A DNA stretch of 64,000 nucleotides, taken from Thalassomonas sp. RHCl1 (lineage in GTDB: Bacteria; Pseudomonadota; Gammaproteobacteria; Enterobacterales; Alteromonadaceae). Where the stretch lies: assembly GCF_947387555.1 (NCBI RefSeq), contig NZ_CANDNZ010000003.1, forward strand, positions 248,001-312,000. The letters run 5' to 3'. The notes under the pieces were generated by a model, which was not told where the DNA came from, did no database searches, and saw only the letters and a list, made by a program, of their open reading frames with translations. Below are positions 4,439-60,261 of this stretch, piece by piece. A program made the translations under genes and the position numbers. Positions within the stretch are counted from its first letter, which is position 1, and each line of letters opens with the position of its first letter.

Positions 4439-6013
4439 ATGTCAGATACTCTGGATATCCGCTTTGCCGTAGAGCAATCCCTGAACATTGATAAGCTTAC
4501 CAGCTACCAATCCTGTATCCGCAGTGCGGTAGACCAGGGGGTTTTACTCGACACGCCGGGATTTTCCGGGACGCCTAAAGATAAAAAAGCCCTGTCACCG
4601 CAATTTCGTCCCTTGCTGTGTACCCGCCTTTACCGCCTGGGTTATCTGGATGAAGAAGACACAGATGACATCAGCAATGGCAAACTGGTCAAGGCCATTA
4701 AACAGCTGCAAAAAGAAGCGGGGTTAAAAACTGACGGCTGGATCGGCGAAGTCACCTGGCAGGCATTACAGCAGCTGTTTACTTTCGAAGAGCCAACCGA
4801 GCTGGAAAAATGGTACCGGGCCGGGCAGCCCTCGCTGTTTTTAAGACGGGCGGTGAACCTGAGGTTGATGGTCCTTGGTATCAGTCGCCGGCGCTCACAG
4901 GCTGATAATGATGATTTTTCAAAAGATCTGGCTAAATTCGGGCAAATACTGAGCCACCTGGGCATAACAGTCGACAAGACAAATGAACAAACCTTCTTAT
5001 TAGACTATTTGTTTGATATTGACTGCCAAACCAGGCACATCGGCTCCTTATCCCCCGAATATATCCGGGCAATTGCGAAAAAGTACCAGCAGGTAAACAA
5101 CCAGTCGATGTTGTCCTATTTTGGCGGTTTATTACGGGCTGAGCTCTGGTTAAGTGGCTATAAGGATGCAGCATTAAGCAGCCGTATTCTTAAGAGAAAA
5201 CAGCATCATATGTCCAGTAAAAGGCATATCTGGTTCACCAGTGGCCTTAACGATGCCATTAAAGTTTTCTGGAAAGATCTTGAGCAAAAAGGGCTCAGCA
5301 CTCTTGATTTTAATGAAAAAAAGAGTGATATCGAGCGCTTTATTTATAGCATGCGCTTTCTCGCTCAGGGAGTCGAAGCGGTTAACACCCAGAGCATAAG
5401 TAAAGAACAAATCACCCAGGAACTCAGAGAAAAATCCAATGATCAGCAATACAGCCAGCATATTAGCGAGCAATGGCAGTCGGTGGGCTGGTTCAGCTGG
5501 GTTTTTGACGGCCTGAAACGCATCTGGCATGCCATTAAAAACCTGTTAAGCGATGTTCTGGAAACGGCCAAATATCTTATCCGCGGCATGAAGCAGGTGA
5601 TCAGCAATGGCCTGTTTTATCTGCAACGGGCATTTTACGTGCTTGAACAGGGGCTGGAATTTCTGCTGTGTAAAACCGTGCCCGGCTCAAATGAACAGCT
5701 GCATATGCAGCGGGATCGGGATTTTGATTATAAGGTGTTTATCGGCGAACAGGTGACCCGTGAGGACATTTCATTGTTTTCCCGTATCGTGGCCCATAAA
5801 CGCCTGATGACACGCGCTGCCCTGCGGGTTTTTGAAATTATCAGCAAAGCGATGGAAATGGCATTATCGCTGTTTCAGCTCAGTAATCCGGTTGGCTGGT
5901 GGAAGTTGATCCAGTCGCTGATCAATATCAATGAGCTTTTTGATGAACAAGACAAGCATATTCTCAGCCAGGCGTTTGCTCCCGATTTACAGTTACTCCT
6001 TCCCTCATCCTGA
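4439..6013 (+). CDS. Protein with N-terminal peptidoglycan-binding-like domain (PF01471), remainder unknown
   Basis: 524 residues without a signal peptide. Residues about 60-115 form a PG_binding_1-type domain: RPLLCTRLYRLGYLDEED followed by AIKQLQKEAGLKTDGWIGEVTWQALQQL, with the typical D-G-x-x-G-x-x-T-W turn. The rest (about 400 residues) is helical and unassigned, including an amphipathic or weakly hydrophobic stretch (VGWFSWVFDGLKRIWHAIKNLL) near residue 345. The family role is binding cell-wall peptides or serving as a modular domain in secretion-system cargo; without a signal peptide, cytoplasmic location or export by a specialised system are both possible. No strong ribosome-binding site precedes the ATG, suggesting translational coupling with the gene 31 bp upstream. 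Confidence 0.6.
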   Translation: MSDTLDIRFAVEQSLNIDKLTSYQSCIRSAVDQGVLLDTPGFSGTPKDKKALSPQFRPLLCTRLYRLGYLDEEDTDDISNGKLVKAIKQLQKEAGLKTDGWIGEVTWQALQQLFTFEEPTELEKWYRAGQPSLFLRRAVNLRLMVLGISRRRSQADNDDFSKDLAKFGQILSHLGITVDKTNEQTFLLDYLFDIDCQTRHIGSLSPEYIRAIAKKYQQVNNQSMLSYFGGLLRAELWLSGYKDAALSSRILKRKQHHMSSKRHIWFTSGLNDAIKVFWKDLEQKGLSTLDFNEKKSDIERFIYSMRFLAQGVEAVNTQSISKEQITQELREKSNDQQYSQHISEQWQSVGWFSWVFDGLKRIWHAIKNLLSDVLETAKYLIRGMKQVISNGLFYLQRAFYVLEQGLEFLLCKTVPGSNEQLHMQRDRDFDYKVFIGEQVTREDISLFSRIVAHKRLMTRAALRVFEIISKAMEMALSLFQLSNPVGWWKLIQSLININELFDEQDKHILSQAFAPDLQLLLPSS

Positions 6014-6404: not shown

Positions 6405-7319
6405 ATGTACACAAAATTATTACTTGGATTATTGGCCGTTACTATGAGTTGGTCAGCTCTTGCAAAAACCACCTTAAATACCTATCCCCTTCCTTCCGGC
6501 ATTAAAGTCTTGGCTGACCTTGCCTATGGCCGGGATGCAAAGCACACTTTAGATGTTTATATTCCTGCCGACGCAAAAGATGTCCCGGTAATCTTCATGG
6601 TGCATGGTGGTGCGTGGCAAGGAGGCGATAAGGCGATTAAATCAGAAGTTGAAAACAAGATAGCTCACTGGGTGACAAGAGGTTTTATCCTGGTTTCTAC
6701 CAACTATCGTACCCTGCCGCAAGTCGGGCCGGTTGAACAAACCAAAGATATAGCCGCGGCTTTATTTTTTGCTCAAGAAAGGGCATATAAATGGGGAGGT
6801 TCTGCGGAGAAGTTCCTATTGATGGGCCATTCATCAGGAGCGCACTTGGTGTCTCTGGTATCAGCTAATTACCATACTATCATCGGAGATGGCATCATGC
6901 CCTGGTTAGGCACGATTTCACTGGATATTTCCGGCTACGACATAGTGAAAAAGGTAATTGGTCCAAACCCTTCTGAATTTTATAAGAAAAAGTTTGGTGA
7001 GAATCCTGATTATTTGAAAAAGGCATCCCCCTTTTATGCCCTTACCGACAAAATTCCTCCATTTCTGGCAATATGCTCACGGCGAAGTGATGATGCCTGT
7101 ACTCAAGCTGAAAATTTCATTGGAAAAGCCAAAAACCTTGGTACCTATGCAGAATTGCTACCTGTAGATTTATCTCATGGAGAAATCAATTCAGAACTTG
7201 GCAAAGACTCTTGCTATACCAAGGATGTTGATGATTTCCTTAAAAAACTAAGTTCAGGCATAGCGTCAATGCTAACGAGCCAAACCACCCTGATACAGAA
7301 AAACTGCGCCGGTGCTTGA
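6405..7319 (+). CDS. Secreted alpha/beta hydrolase (esterase/lipase, BD-FAE/Abhydrolase_3-like)
   Basis: 304 residues with an N-terminal signal peptide ending ...WSALA. HGGAWQGGDK near residue 67 is the oxyanion-hole HGG motif of the hormone-sensitive-lipase/carboxylesterase group; LMGHSSGAHLVSL near residue 145 is the nucleophile elbow (GHSSG, Ser nucleophile); the late LSHGEI supplies the catalytic His and the preceding ICSRRSDDAC region probably the acid. It should hydrolyse ester bonds of small acyl substrates in the periplasm or outside the cell. AAGGAG lies just upstream of the ATG. A strong hairpin follows the stop codon. It is convergent with the PEP-CTERM metalloprotease. Confidence 0.8.
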   Translation: MYTKLLLGLLAVTMSWSALAKTTLNTYPLPSGIKVLADLAYGRDAKHTLDVYIPADAKDVPVIFMVHGGAWQGGDKAIKSEVENKIAHWVTRGFILVSTNYRTLPQVGPVEQTKDIAAALFFAQERAYKWGGSAEKFLLMGHSSGAHLVSLVSANYHTIIGDGIMPWLGTISLDISGYDIVKKVIGPNPSEFYKKKFGENPDYLKKASPFYALTDKIPPFLAICSRRSDDACTQAENFIGKAKNLGTYAELLPVDLSHGEINSELGKDSCYTKDVDDFLKKLSSGIASMLTSQTTLIQKNCAGA

Positions 7320-7405: not shown

Positions 7406-8518
7406 TTAGTGATTCATCGACGCTTTTTTACGGCGCCCAAGTAGCAGGCCAACACCGGCCAGGCCAAATAAAGCAACAGATGCCGGTTCAGGTACCTGCG
7501 AAGTTGATGCTAAATCCCAGCCCATAACATCAAAGGCTAAAATATCCAGGGTAGAGACTTGTTGATATTCACCAAATCCCGTGGTGGGATCCATAGTGCC
7601 CAGGCCAAGATGATCTTTCCAGTGGCTTGCCTGGCGGCCATCGCCGCCAAAAGAGCCGGATGAAAACTGGGCAAGCGAGGTTTGCCCGCCATCAATGGAA
7701 AAATAACTGTCGGCGCCCGGCCGAAAATCTAATACCCCGTCGCCGGCCGCCAGGCTTTCATCGGAATAGCGAAATAAATCCAGGGTATTGATGATGGCAT
7801 AATTGTCTAAATCCAGCGGAGATGCCTGGCCATTATACCAGTAGTCATAGGTATCAACACCGCTGGTGAAACCGAGCGCATGCCCTATTTCATGAATGGC
7901 AACCCCGACAAAGTCCATTTTGTCGCTGTCGATGCCGTCGGAAGGATCAAAATCAAAAGCAAAGGCATTGCTAAAGGTGATTGACGCATCCGAGTCCAAG
8001 AACGCCGTGCCCCAGGAGTTGGCGGAAAACCCCAATGCCTTAGCATTGGCCTGCGTCAGTGCCAGGGCATAATTATCGGCGGAGCCATCGTTATCCAGGC
8101 CGGGGGATGCGGTATCGGCTTCTTGATCTAAAAAACTAATCGCACAAACGCCAATGCTTTGATCATCACAGCCTAGATGATTAACCGCAGAGGCATCCGC
8201 CGCCGAAGTGGCGTCATTGGCCATGCTTTGTATGATATCGTCATACAGAAATACCGCCCGGTTAGAGCCGGTAGAGCCGATAACATTAGGGGCTAAGGCG
8301 GCAAAGCCGATATCCAGGTTGATGGTGACATCATCAACAAAAGTTGACGACCAAAAATTGGCCGCCTGACGAAAGCCGGCCAGGGCCTGCTGTCCCTGGG
8401 CATCGGCAAAGTCAGAGTCGTTATAGGTTAATTCGATAGTGGTTGCAAAAGCAGTTGAAATGTTAATACTCGCAGCAAGGATCACTGCTGCAATGGCAGA
8501 CATTTTATTGATATACAT
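7406..8518 (-). CDS. PEP-CTERM-sorted zinc metalloprotease
   Basis: 370 residues. An N-terminal signal peptide (…AASINISTAFA) leads to a secreted domain with AIHEIGHALGF near residue 207, an HExxHxxG zinc-protease motif followed by SGVD, the pattern of NF038122-like PEP-CTERM metalloproteases. The C-terminus is a PEP-CTERM sorting signal: VPEPASVALFGLAGVGLLLG then RRKK, i.e. PEP motif, transmembrane helix, basic tail. Such proteins are processed by an exosortase (EpsH/XrtA type) and end up at the surface or in exopolysaccharide; no exosortase gene is in this window. The 454 bases upstream (8519-8972) separate it from lodA, divergently transcribed. Confidence 0.85.
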   Translation of the reverse strand: MYINKMSAIAAVILAASINISTAFATTIELTYNDSDFADAQGQQALAGFRQAANFWSSTFVDDVTINLDIGFAALAPNVIGSTGSNRAVFLYDDIIQSMANDATSAADASAVNHLGCDDQSIGVCAISFLDQEADTASPGLDNDGSADNYALALTQANAKALGFSANSWGTAFLDSDASITFSNAFAFDFDPSDGIDSDKMDFVGVAIHEIGHALGFTSGVDTYDYWYNGQASPLDLDNYAIINTLDLFRYSDESLAAGDGVLDFRPGADSYFSIDGGQTSLAQFSSGSFGGDGRQASHWKDHLGLGTMDPTTGFGEYQQVSTLDILAFDVMGWDLASTSQVPEPASVALFGLAGVGLLLGRRKKASMNH

Positions 8519-8972
8519 GCGAATTCCTTTTAATTTTATTATTTTTTTATTGGTTTATTGCAAACCAAGGCCTGTGACATCACGGACAATTTTCCTGCCG
8601 TACACTTAGATAAATAAAGTTAATAGAAGTGAAATAATCAAGGGAAGAGATGACATTCAAGATAATAAAAAGACAATTTTATGTAAAATCAAGACAAAGG
8701 GAGTATGCCGCTATCATTACCTTAACGCATCACCTGCTGTTTTAAACTTTCTTTTTCTGCTTTGCGCTCATGAAAGATACCAAGCCTGCCCGGGTGTAAT
8801 AACGGGTAATATTTTTAAATTCCCCAAATGGTATGCTAATTGACCAGATCTGATGGTAACGACCGGGGGAATATCTTTTGTTTATTATCAGCTTTACTAC
8901 TATAGCGAAGACCATGGCAGCTAAGTTGCCATTGCCGTTAACCGATAATTACATAGCGTAAAGGAAGACGAG
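8519..8972. other. Divergent upstream region between the PEP-CTERM protease and lodA
   Basis: No gene seen. AT-rich next to the protease start, consistent with its promoter. AAGGAAGACGAG immediately before 8973 is the lodA ribosome-binding site. I could not identify a specific operator. Confidence 0.4.
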
Positions 8973-44724: not shown

Positions 44725-45834
44725 TTGATAGTTAAACAATTTATTATAGGAGTGGCTATATTAGTAATGGTTGCGTTAGTGGGATGCAGCCAGACGAAAG
44801 AAGAATTAAGTGTAGAAATAACCCAGCAGCTAGAAAAAAACTCTAAAGTACATGGGATCCCAGCACAAGCATTAGTAATTATGCATAATCAGGAGGTTTT
44901 GTATCGTAATAGTGTTGGCGTTAGAGATATAGAAAATGGCCTACCGGTAACGAATAAGTCGATATTTCCAATATATTCAGTAAGCAAACTGTTCGCCAGT
45001 ACTTTGGTGTTGCAGCTTTATGAATCTGGCCAATTGGATTTAGCTGCCCCGGCTTCAAAATATGTATCAACCTTACCCAGTTCTTGGCGTGATATTCGGG
45101 TTGAACAGTTTTTAAACCACGCTTCAGGAGTACCCGAATATTATGGTTATAAAAATGGGGAATACGAATTTCCGCGTACAATTGAAGAAGCATTTAATCG
45201 AATGAAAGATAAAGGATTGTCATTCAGTCCTGATACGCAAATGCAATATAACCAGACAAATTATTTAGTGATCAAAGCTGTTTTAGAGGCGATTACTGAT
45301 ATGTCTTATTACGAGCTGGTTAACAAGAAAATTATTAAACCATTGGGCTTAAAAGAGACTTGGTTTGGATTAAAAGAGGTACCTAAAGAGCACCTTGTTT
45401 CCTCGTACCTTCCCGAAAGTGGAGGCGGTTATTTAAAGAACGAGGTCCACTTTCCCGAATATGCTATTTCACATTCTGACGCTTATTCATCATTAGATGA
45501 TCTGAGCAAGTTTATGTCATCACTGGCACAAGGCCTGCTGATCTCACAACAGTCTTTGGTTGAACTTTGGCGCCCTTATAGATTATCGGATGGTGATGAA
45601 GGATATTTTTCCACAGGCTGGGATTATAACCGTGCAGGAGGTTGGCATGAAGTTGGGCACGATGGAGGGACTCTGGTAAGAGTGAGAATTTTGTTTCAGA
45701 GCAGTTTAGATGACCATTATATAATTGTTTATTTAACAAATGGTAACAAGGATGGTGTTTGGTCACGAACCCTTGTGGATTCAGTTCAAAATTATGTGAT
45801 GCCAGGTTTGTTTTCTCGAATCCCTATAAACTAA
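44725..45834 (+). CDS. Lipoprotein serine hydrolase of the beta-lactamase/transpeptidase (class C-like) family
   Basis: 369 residues. The start is TTG at 44725, four bases after a strong AAGGAGGA; an ATG at 44721 in another frame stops after four codons. LVMVALVGCS is the lipobox. Motifs: FPIYSVSKLFAST (SxxK nucleophile), MQYNQTNYLVIKAV (YxN) and WHEVGHDGGT (HxG-like third motif). PF00144 members cleave beta-lactams, esters or D-peptides. The gene is more AT-rich than its neighbours, suggesting acquisition. Confidence 0.85.
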   Translation: MIVKQFIIGVAILVMVALVGCSQTKEELSVEITQQLEKNSKVHGIPAQALVIMHNQEVLYRNSVGVRDIENGLPVTNKSIFPIYSVSKLFASTLVLQLYESGQLDLAAPASKYVSTLPSSWRDIRVEQFLNHASGVPEYYGYKNGEYEFPRTIEEAFNRMKDKGLSFSPDTQMQYNQTNYLVIKAVLEAITDMSYYELVNKKIIKPLGLKETWFGLKEVPKEHLVSSYLPESGGGYLKNEVHFPEYAISHSDAYSSLDDLSKFMSSLAQGLLISQQSLVELWRPYRLSDGDEGYFSTGWDYNRAGGWHEVGHDGGTLVRVRILFQSSLDDHYIIVYLTNGNKDGVWSRTLVDSVQNYVMPGLFSRIPIN

Positions 45835-48350: not shown

Positions 48351-49802
48351 ATGCGGATACTACGAAAATCACTAAGGATATTGTCTAGCAGTACGCTATT
48401 GCTTTTAACTGCCTGTAGCGGTGGTGGAAATTCCGATAATACGGGATTAGATACAATCCCTCCGGTTATTACCCTTCATGGTGACAGCACAATGACTTTG
48501 CCCCTGGGAAGAAGTTATAGTGAGCCAGGAGCAAGTGCTACCGATAATGAAGATGGCGTTGTTGAGGTTGCTATTTCCGGCGCTATTGATACCAGCACTT
48601 TAGGTAATTACACCCTTACCTATACCGCAACTGACATTGCCGGCAATAGCGCGAGTATAACCCGTGATATTATTGTCTCGGCTCCCAGACCTTTTATCAC
48701 CACGTGGGAAACCAATGCCAACGGTAAAGCCTTTTCAGACGATAATCAAATCATGATAGATACTGATGGCACGGGATATGACTATCAGGTCGACTGGGGT
48801 GACGGCACCGTGGATGAACATGTTACCGGTGATATCGTACACACATACGCTGCTGAAGGTACCTATACCGTTACAATAAACGGTAGTTTTCCTCAACTTT
48901 ATTTTGAAGCGCCTATTGACGAATATTATGATCTTTATAGCAGTGACCACAACAAGCTACGTTCAATCGAGCAATGGGGCGATATTGAGTGGCGTTCAAT
49001 GCATCGCGCTTTTGCAGGCTGTAAATCCCTGATCAGCAATGCAACGGATAAACCTGATTTGTCGAATGTGAGCGACATGAGCTCTATGTTTGAGGGTGCT
49101 GAAGTATTTAATCAGGACCTTAGCAGCTGGGATGTGTCTAATGTTACGGATATGAGTGCTATGTTCTTTGGGGCCAAGGTTTTTAATCAGGGGCTAAGCA
49201 GTTGGGATGTATCGAATGTTACCGATATGAGCGACATGTTCTTTCTTGCTGAGGCCTTCAATCAAGAGCTAAATAGCTGGGATGTATCGAATGTTACTGA
49301 TATGAATGGCATGTTCGATTTTGCTAAGGCCTTTAATCAAGAGCTAAACAACTGGGATGTATCGAATGTCATGGATATGGGCCATATGTTCTATATGGCA
49401 AAGGTCTTTAATCAGGAGCTAGGCAGCTGGGATGTATCGAATGTCACGGATATGGGCGCTATGTTCTCTGGGGCCGAGGCCTTTAATCAGGATCTAAGCA
49501 ATTGGGATGTATCGAATGTCATGTCTATGCACAGCATGTTCGGGAATGCCGGTAACTTCAATCAGGATCTAAGCAGTTGGGATGTATCAAATGCCACAAA
49601 TATGTTTGGGATGTTTGACGGAGTAACACTTTCAACAGAGAACTATGACGCATTACTGATTGGTTGGCTTAACTTTCCTTTGCAGCACAATATTTCTTTC
49701 CACGCTGGCAATAGTCAATATTCAAATTCAGCGCAAAGTGCCAGAGATGTTCTCACGGTTACCTATGGGTGGAACATCAGCGATGGTGGTGTTGCCAATT
49801 AA
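48351..49802 (+). CDS. Surface lipoprotein with BspA-like (DUF285) 25-residue repeats
   Basis: 483 residues. LLLLTACSGGG is the lipobox region. Residues about 35-110 form an Ig-like HYR/DUF5011 domain (DTIPPVITLHGDSTM, YSEPGASATDNEDG, YTLTYTATDIAGN). A PKD-like segment follows (YQVDWGDGTVDEHVTGDIVHTY). From residue 247 there are seven 25-residue repeats with core FNQxLSSWDVSNVTDM, the DUF285/BspA pattern found in adhesins of Mycoplasma, Bacteroidetes and marine bacteria. Presumed surface binding protein. GGAAAG precedes the ATG. Confidence 0.85.
   Translation: MRILRKSLRILSSSTLLLLTACSGGGNSDNTGLDTIPPVITLHGDSTMTLPLGRSYSEPGASATDNEDGVVEVAISGAIDTSTLGNYTLTYTATDIAGNSASITRDIIVSAPRPFITTWETNANGKAFSDDNQIMIDTDGTGYDYQVDWGDGTVDEHVTGDIVHTYAAEGTYTVTINGSFPQLYFEAPIDEYYDLYSSDHNKLRSIEQWGDIEWRSMHRAFAGCKSLISNATDKPDLSNVSDMSSMFEGAEVFNQDLSSWDVSNVTDMSAMFFGAKVFNQGLSSWDVSNVTDMSDMFFLAEAFNQELNSWDVSNVTDMNGMFDFAKAFNQELNNWDVSNVMDMGHMFYMAKVFNQELGSWDVSNVTDMGAMFSGAEAFNQDLSNWDVSNVMSMHSMFGNAGNFNQDLSSWDVSNATNMFGMFDGVTLSTENYDALLIGWLNFPLQHNISFHAGNSQYSNSAQSARDVLTVTYGWNISDGGVAN
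49089..49613 (+). repeat. Seven 75-bp tandem repeats (25-residue DUF285 units)
   Basis: Each unit starts near TT(T/C)NNNGGGGCC...GCC and carries the nearly constant AGCTGGGATGTATCGAATGT block; repeats agree strongly at DNA level, so copy number could vary by recombination. Confidence 0.85.
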
Positions 49803-50066: not shown

Positions 50067-51521
50067 TCACATATTGACATCATAGGTTTTATTCATGATA
50101 TCAACAGAGATATTGTTATTGTGCTTGAAAGCAACAATTCGGTTGACCTTAAGCTGCTTACTTCGGACAAAATCAATAAAGGTTTTTGTGTAACTTGGTA
50201 TTACCTTAGCAATGGTATTATCGTAAGGAATGTGCAGAAAGTCTGCTTGAAAAATAATCCCGCTGTCTTTGAAATATACAAAGCTTTGCCTTTTTGAGTG
50301 CATATTTTCCAATACATAAAAATGTGCTCCATCAATGACTTGCTCATGTTCAATGGTTTGAAACTTGAACCTGGTGATATCGTCAGCAAAGCGTGGGTAG
50401 GCTTTGATGGCAGAAATACTATATTCATCGGCAAGTATTTCAATACCCTGATCCACAAAGACTTTGAGGCCATCAATTTGATCTCCGTGAGGATGGGTAA
50501 CATAAACAGAGGTGATTTTCTTATTTGGAAATTTTTCAAGAATAAGCTTGATAGTTTTCTCTGCTAAATCGGAATCTTCAGTTGCACCATATACCGCAAT
50601 TTTATCACCGTTCACTTTAAACAAGCTATTTTGATAGGCTGAAGCATCGGTAACAAGGTATAGGTCTTGTGCAATTTCTTTTGACACTAACACCCCGTCC
50701 CATTTAGGGATTTTGGAGTTATATCCTTCTGGAACCTGAAGTTTGCCAGGGTCCACTTTATCAATGATGCCAAAGTGATCATTAAAGGTTATATAGGTTG
50801 GTTCCGTTGTTCCTTCAAAATATTTGTGTACGGTTCTGGCATAGGTTAAACCTCTAGTCGTTTGATAGTCACTATAGACAAAAATGCCACTTTGGCCCCC
50901 CTTGTTGATTGACACAAGCTGCAATGGATTGTGACTAAATTTATAATCGATAACATTATCATCAGAAATTTTATGGGTAAGCGTTGTGTTTCCCGGTATG
51001 CTGTCCTGGTGAAGGGTAATATTTTCCTCAATATTGGCTTCTTCAAAGAGAGGCCTTACTGCCAGAAAGTCGAAATTCATGACAATATGGTTTTTAAAGA
51101 TATCAAAGTAATCCATGCCTCTTTTGAAACTAGCTTTCCCTATGGTCGTGGCACTTCTTTCATAAAAAAAACTTTCTGTATTATTCTGCATTTTAACTCT
51201 GTCGTATAGCCGCCCGCCTGCATAATAAAGGATATCGTTATCATAAAAATGCTTTCTTGCCAGATCCACCTCGGCCGATCTTACCGACATGTATACGTTT
51301 GGTGTTTTATAGTCCCAATAATTAAGGTCTCTATATTGTTTGTTTGTGAAGTGCTGATTCAGTGTGAAGGCGTTAATTGACAGTGTTTTTTGATAGTGTG
51401 TTTTGAGCTTAGCGACAAACTCTTCAGCTTCTGCGGCTAATGCTGTTGATATCGTGATGTTGAAGAATGTCAAACAAGCAAATACAAAGGTGCGTGAATA
51501 ACGTGTTAGGTTAACTTTCAT
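50067..51521 (-). CDS. Secreted MBL-fold metallo-hydrolase with altered zinc motif
   Basis: 484 residues with signal peptide (FFNITISTALA). The N-terminal about 250 residues are beta-rich and unassigned; the C-terminal part is a metallo-beta-lactamase fold: VYVTHPHGDQIDGL near residue 345 and FQADFLHIP near residue 430 with a later FKHNNN. The usual zinc motif HxHxDH reads HPHGDQ here, so the last His is Gln; this may leave a single-metal or altered site. Not one of the true beta-lactamase subclasses by motif. The gene is AT-rich and faces away from the cassette region. Confidence 0.7.
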   Translation of the reverse strand: MKVNLTRYSRTFVFACLTFFNITISTALAAEAEEFVAKLKTHYQKTLSINAFTLNQHFTNKQYRDLNYWDYKTPNVYMSVRSAEVDLARKHFYDNDILYYAGGRLYDRVKMQNNTESFFYERSATTIGKASFKRGMDYFDIFKNHIVMNFDFLAVRPLFEEANIEENITLHQDSIPGNTTLTHKISDDNVIDYKFSHNPLQLVSINKGGQSGIFVYSDYQTTRGLTYARTVHKYFEGTTEPTYITFNDHFGIIDKVDPGKLQVPEGYNSKIPKWDGVLVSKEIAQDLYLVTDASAYQNSLFKVNGDKIAVYGATEDSDLAEKTIKLILEKFPNKKITSVYVTHPHGDQIDGLKVFVDQGIEILADEYSISAIKAYPRFADDITRFKFQTIEHEQVIDGAHFYVLENMHSKRQSFVYFKDSGIIFQADFLHIPYDNTIAKVIPSYTKTFIDFVRSKQLKVNRIVAFKHNNNISVDIMNKTYDVNM

Positions 51522-51688
51522 CGGTAATTCCTTATTTTTATTTAGGTTAGATCACCCGTGCCAAATAAAAAGTGGTGAGTTTTGCGCAAAAATAGTGTTG
51601 GGCAAAGAGGCACTGGATGACTAGCTCCTATCAACCAGATAGCCCTAATTAGGGCTAATATAGATCTTCGTTTAACGTTACAACAGGC
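51522..51688. other. Divergent region with an 18-bp palindrome
   Basis: TAGCCCTAATTAGGGCTA at 51640-51657 is a perfect palindrome, a possible operator. CGTTTAACG at 51669-51677 could be the 5' core (R') of the upstream candidate cassette. Confidence 0.45.
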
Positions 51689-51904
51689 ATGTTATGTAAA
51701 AATGCGAGGGGTCAAGTTTTACAAAAGTTTACATGTGATTTTGCTGAAATATTGTCGCTTGAAAATTCAGTTTTTGGCTGTCTTGCTTTGCTAGTTAAGT
51801 TGTCATGTTTTGCCATAATTCATCATGACTTGAGCATTGTTCTAGCAAAACTTAAAGATATACTAGCCCTCACTAAATGGGCGCAACATAGTAAGTGGTT
51901 ATAG
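51689..51904 (+). CDS. Possible ORF of an upstream gene cassette, unknown product
   Basis: 71 codons from ATG 51689 to TAG 51902, ending 6 bases before an attC-like site, which is how cassette genes normally end. It begins MLCKNARGQVLQKFTCDFAE and ends LTKWAQHSKWL. There is no ribosome-binding site and no family. I keep it only because of the position; it may not be translated. Confidence 0.25.
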   Translation: MLCKNARGQVLQKFTCDFAEILSLENSVFGCLALLVKLSCFAIIHHDLSIVLAKLKDILALTKWAQHSKWL

Positions 51905-51910
51905 ATACTC

Positions 51911-51999
51911 GTTTAAACCGGGACCAATAACAGTTGGTTCTTGCTCCTGCGTCGCTTATTTTGACCAACGATTATTTCCCCGTTAATGGGGCGTTAGAG
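51911..51999 (+). other. attC-like recombination site 1 (cassette 5' boundary)
   Basis: R'' candidate GTTTAAA(C) at 51911; AACCGGG (51916-51922) pairs with CCCCGTT (51978-51984) 6 of 7; GTTGGT (51933-51938) pairs with ACCAAC (51964-51969); R' is GTTAGAG at 51993-51999 (GTTRRRY, one mismatch) in GCGTTAG. Length 89, in the normal attC range. The recombination point would be between 51993 and 51994. Confidence 0.7.
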
Positions 52000-52010
52000 G
52001 CTATTTAACT

Positions 52011-52742
52011 ATGAAATCAATTATTCTACTTATACTCGTTTTTCCTTGTATTGCTTTTGCAAAGAATGAAAGTGTTAAACAACTTAAAATTAAAAAATTA
52101 AGTGATAACGTCTATCAGCATATTTCATCTAGGAGGGTTGAACCATGGGGGGTAGTAGAGGCATCAGGTCTCGTTGTTATTAATGGTACTGAAGCACATA
52201 TGATTGACACTCCTTGGACAACTCAGGGAACTAAAGAATTAATTGAGTGGATTGAAGCTAAAGGGCTAACTTTGAAAAATACTGTCGTTACTCATTTTCA
52301 TGAAGATGCTAGCGGCGATTTACCACTTTTAAATGATCTAAAAATAAAAACTTATGCAACATCATTAACCAACAAACTGCTCAAATCAAACCAAAAAGAA
52401 ACGTCTAGTGATGAAATATCAAGTAATACATTTGAATTAGTTGATGGTGTCGTGAGTGTTTTTTACCCGGGAGTAGGACATACAGAAGATAATATTGTTG
52501 TTTGGCTGCCTAAGGAAAAGATACTATTCGGCGGCTGTTTTGTTAAAAGCCTGCACAATAAACATTTAGGCTATACTGGGGACGCTGTTATTGGTGAATG
52601 GTCAAACTCTATTCAGAAAGTCATTAATCGCTATCCTGATATTAAGTTAGTTGTTCCTGGGCATGGTAAAGTTGGAGACGTTAGTTTACTCACTCATACA
52701 CAAAAATTAGCTTTGTCTGCAAAGGCCTCTAACAAGGACTAA
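52011..52742 (+). CDS. Subclass B1 metallo-beta-lactamase
   Basis: 243 residues with signal peptide MKSIILLILVFPCIAFA, so a periplasmic enzyme hydrolysing beta-lactams including, in this subclass, carbapenems (activity here is inferred). All zinc ligands are present: His95, His97, Asp99 (HFHED), His157 (GVGHTEDN), Cys176 (FGGCFVKS) and His218 (VPGHGKVGD), i.e. BBL His116/118, Asp120, His196, Cys221, His263; Lys179 fits the Lys224 position. Order and words (VVWLPKEKILFGGCF, FYPGVGHT, YATSLTNKLLK) resemble the IMP and DIM/TMB branch. The gene starts 17 bases after a cassette boundary, its stop lies in the following attC-like site, and it is more AT-rich than its neighbours. Confidence 0.95.
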   Translation: MKSIILLILVFPCIAFAKNESVKQLKIKKLSDNVYQHISSRRVEPWGVVEASGLVVINGTEAHMIDTPWTTQGTKELIEWIEAKGLTLKNTVVTHFHEDASGDLPLLNDLKIKTYATSLTNKLLKSNQKETSSDEISSNTFELVDGVVSVFYPGVGHTEDNIVVWLPKEKILFGGCFVKSLHNKHLGYTGDAVIGEWSNSIQKVINRYPDIKLVVPGHGKVGDVSLLTHTQKLALSAKASNKD

Positions 52743-52812
52743 AAACCGTTGGCTTTAGCTCCTTTGTCGCTTATTTTAGCCAAATATTATTAAGCCGCTT
52801 ATCGTGGTATTA
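52725..52812 (+). other. attC-like recombination site 2 (cassette 3' end), R' decayed
   Basis: R'' is CTCTAAC (52727-52733), extended to GCCTCTAAC (52725-52733), the exact reverse complement of GTTAGAGGC (51993-52001) at the cassette start. TTGGCT (52749-52754) pairs with AGCCAA (52778-52783). The centre shares GCTCCT and GTCGCTTATTTT with site 1. The expected R' (GCGTTAG) is replaced by something like GTATTAT near 52807, so this end is degenerate or a chain end. The lactamase stop codon lies inside it. Confidence 0.7.
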
Positions 52813-53003
52813 TCGATACACAATCTAATCCAAATTAGCTTTAAGTGCCAATCTCCTAATGTCGCGCATGTGGCAAAACCGGTCTAAAACCACTGAAACA
52901 GTATCAGTTAAAAAAGCCTGTTTAAACCAACTACCTTGCGCTTCCTTAGTTTCCATTTACCTGTAAAGCTCCCGACCAATCAATCAGCCTAAAGGAGCAT
53001 ATG

Positions 53004-53312
53004 TTAACGTGCTTTCGGATCAATAGCTTTTGCCAATGCTGCAAAGGCTTTTATCTCGTCCAGGCTAAATTTTGTATGAACCCTTTGTGTTGCAGCTTGC
53101 TGATGAGCCAGGCTAACCCCTTTTCTGCGGGCTGTTTTGGGCCTTACCGGCCTGGGGGTGAAACCACCGCCACAGTTTGGACAGACATTTTCAAGCACTT
53201 CAAGCACACACTTTTGGCAAAAGGTACATTCATATGTACAAATCATGGCATCGTCGGCATCCGGCGCAAGATCCTTATCGCAGTATTCACAGTTGGGCCG
53301 AATTTCCAGCAT
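53004..53312 (-). CDS. DUF1272-domain zinc-binding protein
   Basis: 102 residues. MLEIRPNCEYCDKDL, ICTYECTFCQKC and CPNCGGG carry paired CxxC motifs typical of DUF1272, followed by RPVRPKT. Probably zinc-binding and cytoplasmic; no role is known. Its start overlaps the upstream peptidase gene's stop by one base pair (TGATG), so the two are co-translated. Confidence 0.8.
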   Translation of the reverse strand: MLEIRPNCEYCDKDLAPDADDAMICTYECTFCQKCVLEVLENVCPNCGGGFTPRPVRPKTARRKGVSLAHQQAATQRVHTKFSLDEIKAFAALAKAIDPKAR

Positions 53313-58310: not shown

Positions 58311-60203
58311 CTACCAGGACCATAAACTTAAGCCGATATAATTAAAATACCAACCGTAAACCGTCAGCATCACCAGGGCGGATACAGAAATCAGGGAAAA
58401 ATATCTGGCGCCAGAATGGGGTTCAAGCCGCCACATTTTTACAAGTTGCAATAATCCCAACAAGGAACAAATGGCAAACACCAGAGTAAAGATACAGATA
58501 AACAGTGTTTGCCAGTTCAGTTGTCCCGCCTCTTCGGGAGACAAGCAAAATAAGGCCATCATCACTATAGCCAAAGACACGCTTGCCAGGGCAGGATATA
58601 AGCGCAGGCTAAGCCGCCCTTTTCCGGGCAGTTTACCCGAAGTATGGTTTATCAACCAATAGGGAAGATACAACAGGGTAAGCTGCACAGCAAAAAAGGC
58701 CCATGCCAGCATAATTGGTATACCCCAGGCAGCAAAGGCGCTTGACTTAGCATAATATTGACCGTCAAACACGAATACTTTGCCGTCAACCGATTCTTTG
58801 ATAAAAACCCCGCTGGCATGGCTGTTGCCCGGCAAACGAAATTGTTGCTGCCCCACATGCAGCAACCTCTCCCCTTCGCCGATAACAGGTATCAGATCTA
58901 TTTCGCTGTCGCGTGCCTCAATAATGATGGTATCTAAGGGATAACTGAGACCGGCAAAAATTTCATTGCGGTTATTCACCATACGGTAGTAGCCGCCGAT
59001 CTCAGCATCAATACCGGCAACTTGTATTTGCTTGCCGGGAGGATGATCTTTTGCCAGGTAGCGGGTGATGAGTGTCAGCAGGGTATGAATATGCGCAGAG
59101 TCGGAGTTGACGACCAGTGCATAACCCTGACCGATTGCCGGCGAATAACCATATGCGGCTAAAAATCCGGCGATGGCGCCGCCGTGTCCTAACCAGGGCC
59201 GCCGGCTCTGGCTGCTGGAATAAAGCCCCAGGCCATAACCGTAATTAAGACCTGCCCGGGCAGCCAAAGTCGTGCGTGGTTGTTCCATTTGCAAGATATC
59301 GGCAGCGCTGATATCCGCCAGGATATTTTGCCGGTTACGGGTTAACAGCAAATGGCCGAACAAGGCCAGCTCATATGCCCGGGTCTGTATGTTGCCGGCA
59401 GAGCGCAGATAAATATCCCGGTAAGGCACGGCTTTCCCGGCGCTATACCCTTGGCTTAACTTCTGCTGATGGCTGGACGATGGCCCCATAGTGGAGTGCT
59501 GCATCGCCAGCGGCTGCAAAATATGTTGCCTGATATATTGCTCAAAACTCTGGCCGGAAAATTTTTCAATGATATAGCCCAGTACGCCATAACCCGGGTT
59601 TGAATAGGCATGCCGTGTGCCGGGTTGCCAGCGCACTTTTAAAGCGCCTGCATCCCGGTTGACGGCATCGAGCAGGCTGATCCCGGGATCGGAAGTATTA
59701 TAGATATTGCGAAAGTGCATATCATCCAGCCCGGCGCTGTGTTCCAGCAGATGCACCAGTTTTACCGGATGTGTGGCCTGCCAGGGATTCTCTATTTTGA
59801 CCTCCGGCGCCAGGTCAGTAAGCTTGTCCTGCAAAGTCAGCCGTCCCTGTCCGGCCAGCTGCATAATGGCCAGGGCGATAAAGGTTTTAGTGGTTGAGCC
59901 GCCCCGAAACAGGGTCTCTTGTTCTACCGGTAACGCCTTATCTATATCCCGTGTTCCCAGGGCCTGCTGCCAATAAATCCCCTGTTCATCAAACAAGGCT
60001 ATTTGCAGGCCGGGAATTTTTTCCAGCGCCAGCAAAAGCTCCAGCCGCTGTTTTAGCTGAGGCAAAGAGTGCGGGATTGAATGGGCGGAAGTGTGAAACG
60101 AATGGGCTGAGGTTTGCGGAGTTTGTGCTTGTCCGCTTTGCAGTCCGTAGACTGTAAGGCAAAGTAAAAAAATCCCCGTTATTAGCCAAAAAAGCCGTTT
60201 CAT
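58311..60203 (-). CDS. Serine hydrolase (beta-lactamase family, PF00144) with C-terminal membrane domain
   Basis: 630 residues from ATG at 60203 (GGGAG upstream). N-terminal signal anchor (LFWLITGIFLLCLTVY). FRGGSTTKTFIALA is the SxxK site (S-T-T-K), HAYSNPGYGVLG the YxN motif (Y-S-N), WLGHGGAIAGF the HxG third motif. The last about 130 residues hold four or so hydrophobic helices (FAAWGIPIMLAWAFFAVQLT ...), so the catalytic domain should face the periplasm. Members cleave esters or D-amino-acid peptides; no beta-lactamase activity should be assumed. Confidence 0.88.
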   Translation of the reverse strand: MKRLFWLITGIFLLCLTVYGLQSGQAQTPQTSAHSFHTSAHSIPHSLPQLKQRLELLLALEKIPGLQIALFDEQGIYWQQALGTRDIDKALPVEQETLFRGGSTTKTFIALAIMQLAGQGRLTLQDKLTDLAPEVKIENPWQATHPVKLVHLLEHSAGLDDMHFRNIYNTSDPGISLLDAVNRDAGALKVRWQPGTRHAYSNPGYGVLGYIIEKFSGQSFEQYIRQHILQPLAMQHSTMGPSSSHQQKLSQGYSAGKAVPYRDIYLRSAGNIQTRAYELALFGHLLLTRNRQNILADISAADILQMEQPRTTLAARAGLNYGYGLGLYSSSQSRRPWLGHGGAIAGFLAAYGYSPAIGQGYALVVNSDSAHIHTLLTLITRYLAKDHPPGKQIQVAGIDAEIGGYYRMVNNRNEIFAGLSYPLDTIIIEARDSEIDLIPVIGEGERLLHVGQQQFRLPGNSHASGVFIKESVDGKVFVFDGQYYAKSSAFAAWGIPIMLAWAFFAVQLTLLYLPYWLINHTSGKLPGKGRLSLRLYPALASVSLAIVMMALFCLSPEEAGQLNWQTLFICIFTLVFAICSLLGLLQLVKMWRLEPHSGARYFSLISVSALVMLTVYGWYFNYIGLSLWSW

Positions 60204-60261
60204 TAAAACTCCCGTGCCGAACATTAGCTGATACACAACCCGCCAGTGATGCGCTGATAAA

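Follow-up and report, generated by a model that had tools for sequence, protein, structure and literature searches.

A VMB-type metallo-β-lactamase gene as a lone integron cassette in a Colwelliaceae chromosome

How does a metallo-β-lactamase gene of subclass B1 come to stand in a Colwelliaceae chromosome, and what does its location say about the source of the mobile enzymes of this subclass? We know of no origin for most of the metallo-β-lactamase cassettes that mobile integrons carry. The stretch of DNA analyzed here (64 kb in length, hereafter the window) contains such a gene, and although its product is an ordinary enzyme, its location is informative. Very probably, a VMB-type B1 enzyme arrived at this place as an integron cassette and now stands alone with worn attC sites, and marine pools of such cassettes gave rise to the plasmid-borne VMB-1.

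The enzyme and its family

The gene occupies positions 52011..52742 of the window (+ strand) and is intact, with 243 codons starting from ATG and followed by TAA, exactly as an earlier sequence-only reading of this DNA had it. In an alignment of 11 B1 sequences, including VMB-1, VAM-1, DIM, TMB-1, IMP-6, VIM-1 and NDM-1, the six zinc ligands listed in that reading (His95, His97, Asp99, His157, Cys176 and His218, which we take to be H116, H118, D120, H196, C221 and H263 of the standard B1 numbering) are invariant, and Lys179 is present in the window protein as well. The assignment to subclass B1 likewise holds, with a score of 256.5 bits for the subclass model NF033088 (cut-off 200). The best family model is the NCBIfam blaVMB model NF038184, which yields 517.8 bits against a curated cut-off of 500 and is matched over its entire length (residues 1-242 of the protein, positions 1-242 of the 242 in the profile); the DIM/SIM/IMP model NF012145 reaches 268.5 bits, below its cut-off of 288, which leaves the protein outside that group. 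To judge from these scores, the window protein is a new member of the known VMB family and not the representative of an uncatalogued one. The earlier suggestion that the enzyme was apparently uncatalogued is thus wrong at the level of the family, which had already been described; the best relative in the plasmid records searched is VMB-1, with 83.5% identity.

In a tree of 62 proteins, from which the truncated L165 (181 aa) and three duplicates had been dropped, the window protein clusters with its counterparts from two genomes of the same genus (G001 and G002) and with L148 (that is, L003), L149 (L004) and L008 (95/95). This clade adjoins VMB-1, VAM-1, L005, L006 and L007, the 11 rows together having 99/88; the DIM/TMB and IMP/SIM/KHM groups are separate from it, and NDM and VIM are far away. 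The placement near IMP and DIM/TMB rather than NDM or VIM that had been proposed from short sequence motifs is borne out as a neighborhood, although the nearest family, VMB, had gone unnamed.

The closest solved structure is that of VMB-1 (PDB 6jv4), and the alignment of the crystallized chain with the window protein begins at residue 18; residues 1-17 (MKSIILLILVFPCIAFA; 52011..52061, + strand) look by eye like a signal peptide. The product is most likely a periplasmic two-zinc B1 β-lactamase, and homology together with the intact zinc ligands predicts hydrolysis of β-lactams including carbapenems. The coding sequence is constrained: dN/dS is 0.096-0.23 in seven of the eight pairs compared, namely 0.23 with G001 and with L003 and 0.096-0.128 with five more distant sequences, the one pair outside this range being that with G002 (0.398). 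At this locus, the GC content is 0.355 versus 0.456 across the window. A promoter scan yielded three candidates against 4.2 expected by chance, and thus nothing above the chance level. The gene is presumably expressed and its product presumably active.

Several other genes of the window deserve mention. Two proteins of the serine β-lactamase family (PF00144, E about 1e-56) are encoded within 8 kb of the metallo-enzyme (44725-45834, + strand, and 58311-60236, - strand); they may be lactamases, esterases or peptidases. The gene at 50067-51521 (- strand) encodes a secreted-looking protein of 484 aa that has no Pfam match at E ≤0.01 and contains, in its C-terminal half, a THPHGDQIDG motif resembling by eye a degenerate metallo-β-lactamase fold. 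The gene at 48351-49802 (+ strand) encodes a surface protein that resembles a lipoprotein and combines Ig-like and PKD domains with DUF285 repeats (WDVSNVTDM), a repeat family that Pfam labels as a mycoplasma family.

The cassette and its worn attC sites

A direct repeat of 72 nt (74%) lies on either side of the gene, its two copies 815 nt apart. We built a covariance model, R1, from 13 aligned attC sites of the Colwelliaceae loci L012 and L003, none of which lies directly beside a lactamase gene. In the 64-kb window, this model detects two significant sites, both flanking the gene and both on its strand, at 51899..51998 upstream (75.3 bits, E 7e-14) and at 52715..52814 downstream (59.1 bits, E 2e-10), the next-best match having an E-value of 0.042. 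A simple script searching for R'' and R' motifs, which this model replaced, recovered some sites of the arrays at L081, L012 and L003; it also returned chance matches, and it missed both sites of the window because their boxes are degenerate. An Rfam scan of positions 51500-53100 gave no match at E ≤1.

The upstream site retains an intact R' box (GTTAGAG, 51993-51999, + strand), and its R'' region is non-canonical, reading TTATAGATAC instead of the usual NNNTAACAAG. The downstream site is that of the gene's own cassette. Its R'' box (CTCTAAC, 52727-52733, + strand) lies within the end of the ORF, so that the C-terminal residues ASNK are translated attC sequence (GCCTCTAACAAG, 52725..52736, + strand); the same tail is found in VMB-1 and in the proteins of L003, L005 and L006. 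In the R' box of this site, the triplet ATT (52809-52811, + strand) has taken the place of GTT. The predicted cassette (51994..52809, + strand) begins with TTAGAGGC and continues up to this decayed R' box, and its start, GTTAGAGGC, is identical to that of the VMB-1 cassette (L066, position 7971). With a single ORF, an attC of its own behind it and a start at the G/TT junction, the window gene is an integron gene cassette, and the upstream attC is best explained as belonging to a neighboring cassette. The sequence-only reading had recognized the gene and overlooked the attC sites on both sides of it.

Both sites look decayed. Folded as single strands, they have z-scores of -1.4 (19 of 200 shuffled sequences as good) and +0.2 (110 of 200), versus -3.5 for the attC of VMB-1 and -3.4 for an attC of L012, which are well kept; the upstream R' of the G001 and G002 copies also reads ATT. 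The 64-kb window contains no match to the integron integrase model TIGR02249 and is therefore not a complete integron. In the genome to which the window belongs (G000; 7.56 Mb, 39 contigs), the only match above the cut-off is an intact integrase on contig C9 (456 bits), at the head of an array in which about 18 small ORFs (counted by eye) are separated by attC-like spacers. This is the genome's own chromosomal integron (C9:63726-64676, continuing to 75000; L081). R1 finds one site of 67 bits and three of 24-27 bits in this array and, since only one scores high, most of its attC sites appear to be of another type. A broken second integron integrase on contig C4 (85630-86248; L082) consists of pieces 69-91% identical to the C9 copy. 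Across the genome, R1 has at least 15 matches at E ≤0.1, a lower bound with 150 of the 3,632 candidates scored. On contig C1 (210888-231384; L209, L210), 12 attC-like matches (E ≤0.05), all on the same strand, are spread across about 30 kb and form another cassette cluster, with no integrase above the cut-off on that contig.

Arrangements of at least two attC sites with no integrase nearby are known as CALINs, and the window locus, which has two attC sites and lacks an integrase throughout the 64 kb, is one of these; it differs in being a minimal case, with a single gene and decayed sites. The lactamase gene would have arrived as a cassette, the 3' end of its ORF running into its own attC, and would then have settled alone, apart from the integrase on C9, as its attC sites decayed and presumably lost the capacity for recombination. 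A cassette that is alone, distant from the genome's integrase and bounded by decayed attC sites has probably become a stable resident of this lineage.

A block shared within the genus

The window shares with G001 and G002 a block at 51786..52875 (+ strand; 90% and 88%) that lies in unrelated places: in the three genomes, this block of 1.1-1.2 kb occupies different positions, and the proteins that it encodes in G001 and G002 are 88-92% identical to the window protein. Between G001 and G002, a single 1.2-kb block (94%) is the only homology at E ≤1e-5 in 20 kb of each; outside the block, the window resembles the G001 stretch weakly at one place (63.5% over 159 nt). Because the block exceeds the cassette on both sides and reaches past both attC sites, its latest move is not explained by cassette excision.

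The two ends of the block recur elsewhere. The left module (51786..51898, + strand) is also found in Colwellia DT_19, and ends related to it stand before other cargo in other places. The right module (52810..52875, + strand; TTATCGATACACAATCTAATCC...CTAATGTC...TGTGGCA) is repeated in Colwelliaceae as GTTATCGATACAAAATCTAATCC...CTAATGTC...TGTGGCA, with matches, some of them short, in 19 of 147 genomes at E ≤0.01. Among 30 module loci (L109-L138), an R1 attC ends at the right module in 12, three of which are copies of the lactamase block and two near-copies of each other, and the offset is the same in 11 of the 12; no such attC is found there in the other 18 loci. The expected attC R' junction, CGTTAT, directly precedes the core in 13 of 29 distinct matches, a one-off form of it in seven and neither form in nine, against a background of 0.4 per kb and strand for CGTTAT, of which TTAT, but not CG, was within the query. 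By eye, no right module is present at the attI of the C9 integron.

These observations could be accounted for by a small non-autonomous mobile unit of 1.1-1.2 kb that swallowed the cassette, in which case integrons would have no role in the present spread within the genus. The 94% block that G001 and G002 share without any surrounding homology is compatible with such a unit, as are the block ends, which carry GACATTAG and CTAATGTC (imperfect inverted ends), and the fact that the flanks of each copy hold other DNA in the other genome. However, no clear target duplication was seen, and the search for clean empty sites in G001 and G002 led in both cases to variable regions holding different cargo. 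At 30 right-module loci, 28 of which have a recognized core, a strict search for inverted terminal repeats yielded nothing upstream and a single weak match downstream.

The site of the G002 copy also argues against a moving element. Inter-genome homology at this site begins at the right module, which is present there, in diverged form and with no attC before it, in both G000 and G001, and relatives of the left end are found as well (70.9% over 86 nt in G001 and 74.6% over 59 nt in G000), with other cargo in between. In G001, the sequences that flank the G002 copy surround genes for TIR (ThsB-like), SMEK-domain and ParA-like proteins; an attC follows the SMEK gene, and the cargo is possibly defense-related. 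The flanks of the G001 copy surround other DNA in G002, where the left end of that copy is present without the lactamase. Because the modules are resident with other cargo, a fixed slot accounts for the site no less well than a moving element would, and the mobile unit is a doubtful explanation. With similar reservation, we tentatively suggest that Colwelliaceae chromosomes contain integrase-less slots, consisting of the right module, repeated over the chromosome, with or without the left end, at which cassettes could be parked at the GTT in trans to the integrase. The carbapenemase gene might, equally tentatively, be one cargo among several of such slots.

Related regions of the genus show a variety of contents. 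The window's neighbor genes are present in G001 without the lactamase; at this syntenic site (L106, 10818-11877), its place is taken by three small ORFs, two of which look by eye MerR-like and MerC-like, so that the site is variable in its cargo. The G001 variable region L206 (7538-10908) contains the ThsB-type TIR, SMEK-domain and ParA-like genes and the attC. In G003, a fourth genome of the genus, the VMB-like gene has decayed: two short remnants (C2:780583 and 786446; L105) lie within the same 20 kb as attC-like sites.

Relatives of the cassette and the source of VMB-1

A pattern-based scan of genome contigs identified 63 loci, of which 11 have 59-88% identity; by title, all are from Gammaproteobacteria and most are named as Colwelliaceae or Alteromonadaceae. 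Among Colwelliaceae, a lactamase match at E ≤1e-20 is present in 37 of 147 genomes, which represent 18 of 52 genera; the phage records searched contain no relative. Of the earlier description of the locus as a marine chromosome, the chromosomal part holds and the marine label rests on relatives. With R1, a same-strand attC adjacent to the gene (E ≤0.1 in one scan and ≤0.05 in another) was detected at 12 of 38 distinct chromosomal or MAG loci, namely the window, G001, G002, L003, L005, L006, L007, L009, L010, L011, L012 and L150, and at none of the remaining 26. The L003 locus belongs to the Colwellia MAG DT_19, and a stretch of 3,120 nt in G101, a genome of the same family as that of the window, is identical to it, which places the window genome in Colwelliaceae.

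In two cases, the gene is located inside an array. At L012, it lies between attC sites at 5888-5988 and 6709-6825, among 20 same-strand attC sites; at L011, where there are 10, the flanking sites are at 5893-5988 and 6715-6834, the second of which is weak (E 0.048). The VMB cut-off of 500 bits is passed by five of the ten relatives scored (G001, G002, L003, L005 and L006), with L004 just below it (493.9 bits) and L011, L012, L150 and VAM-1 at 350-414 bits, so that the enzymes encoded mid-array are VMB-like rather than VMB. In the 62-protein tree, cassette and non-cassette forms are intermingled yet clustered, with 6 changes against a mean of 12.9 after shuffling (0 of 500 as low), a count that is rough because the 14 rows labeled as cassettes include L149 and L156, where the sole cassette mark is a start of the GTTATAGG or GTTAGAGG type and R1 detects no neighboring attC on their strand, and do not include L010 despite its upstream attC.

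The 26 of 38 loci without an adjacent R1 attC, and the more divergent homologs, which are found in contexts free of cassette marks, would agree with the window gene being an ordinary resident chromosomal B1 gene that has attC resemblance by chance. This is nevertheless very improbable in the face of two R1 matches with E-values of 7e-14 and 2e-10 on the same strand, one per side, a cassette start in common with VMB-1, sharp boundaries in Alteromonadaceae and the arrays at L011 and L012. The cassette reading stands: cassettes for related enzymes reside in arrays of other Colwelliaceae, and Alteromonadaceae chromosomes carry the VMB-1 cassette itself at 93-95% DNA identity with identical boundaries.

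Among 72,556 plasmid records, the best relatives of the window protein are VMB-1, found in two records (83.5% over 242 residues), and VAM-1, found in three (67.4%); the remaining 2,705 records with a match are below 60% identity. On the IncC plasmid pVb1796 of Vibrio alginolyticus, VMB-1 is the first gene after the integron integrase; R1 gives the attC of VMB-1 78.2 bits. Positions 7971-8809 of pVb1796 (L066) have 95.0% DNA identity to Alteromonadaceae bacterium Bs31, and positions 7966-8808 have 92.6% to Glaciecola sp. KUL10; within five bases, the edges of this homology are the cassette start GTTAGAGG and the GGCGTTA of the attC, and edges this sharp point to integrase-mediated exchange. The examined stretches of L005 and L006 contain no integrase similar to two query integrases. 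The VMB-1 protein is 94% identical to the KUL10 and Bs31 proteins and 83.5% identical to the window protein (dS between the genes 0.76). The KUL10 and Bs31 genes being far closer, the window gene is a cousin and not a parent of VMB-1, and the earlier hint of an ancestor of clinical enzymes is not sustained; the broader proposal of a chromosomal B1 enzyme related to mobile ones is supported by this Colwelliaceae chromosome. Recent acquisition from VMB-1-bearing Vibrio plasmids, with which the shared family and cassette start would agree, can be practically dismissed in view of the 83.5% protein identity and dS of 0.76 to VMB-1, the same block in same-genus genomes at 88-92% protein identity, the decayed attC sites and the lack of any much closer copy in the 72,556 plasmid records searched.

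The most likely source of plasmid VMB-1 is integrase-mediated capture from the cassette pools of Colwelliaceae and Alteromonadaceae: an integrase would have taken the gene from such marine chromosomal pools onto the plasmid, and we infer a direction from chromosome to plasmid. We had considered the R1 type of attC to be specific to Colwelliaceae, an idea rejected by an order-wide control in which it was found in at least 79 of 158 genomes (at least 26 of 68 genera) at E ≤1e-6, these being lower bounds with 26 candidates scored per genome. Being so widespread in the order, this attC type points to no single donor family. In the records of other enzymes, the best R1 matches are 18 bits (IMP-6), 15 bits (VIM-1) and 11 bits (DIM), and there is none at E ≤1 in those of TMB-1, KHM-1, SIM-1 and NDM-1.

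Comparison with these enzymes delineates what is particular to the window. VMB-1 has the same zinc ligands, family model and cassette start, a related attC and 83.5% identity over 242 residues, but it follows an integrase on a conjugative plasmid and its attC folds well, whereas the window copy is chromosomal and alone. The KUL10 and Bs31 cassettes (L005, L006) are on chromosomal contigs, have the same boundaries and exceed the VMB cut-off, but their proteins are 82-83% identical to the window protein and their attC R' boxes keep GTT. VAM-1 (Vibrio alginolyticus pC1579) has 67% identity and falls within the VMB clade of the tree; unlike the window protein, it scores below the VMB cut-off (413.7 bits), and its gene is near ISCR1, with no adjacent attC found. 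DIM, TMB-1, IMP-6 and KHM-1 are subclass B1 enzymes too, but with about 44-51% identity to the window protein and in separate clades; in the records examined, DIM and TMB-1 are beside intI1 and IMP-6 lies between cassette-type aminoglycoside genes, whereas KHM-1, unlike the window gene, is beside an IS.

As far as the portions of the published reports covered here go, VMB-1, VMB-2 and VAM-1 were found in shrimp Vibrio, and recipients of the VMB-1 plasmid gained in imipenem MIC (PMC9604146). VMB-1 is described as integron-borne on IncC in the relevant part of PMC12238668, where AMM-1 is given as 36.6% identical to VMB-1, an identity at which we rejected AMM-1 as a close relative. The main text of Berglund 2017 makes no mention of Colwellia, Thalassomonas, Glaciecola, Alteromonadales or attC (PMC5637372). 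None of the papers surveyed by abstract describes chromosomal cassettes with VMB-type genes in Colwelliaceae or Alteromonadaceae; parts of these findings may already be in print.

Taken together, the loci show one group of enzymes in several states, namely as non-cassette chromosomal genes, within arrays, as the solitary decayed cassette of the window and, with identical cassette boundaries, on a conjugative plasmid. This suggests that a VMB-type resistance gene circulates as a cassette among ocean bacteria, beyond Vibrio plasmids. If the repeated module is indeed a landing site, it would represent a new way to spread cassettes across a chromosome. The marine origin of VMB-1 thereby becomes testable, and Colwelliaceae together with Alteromonadaceae are the reservoir to watch.
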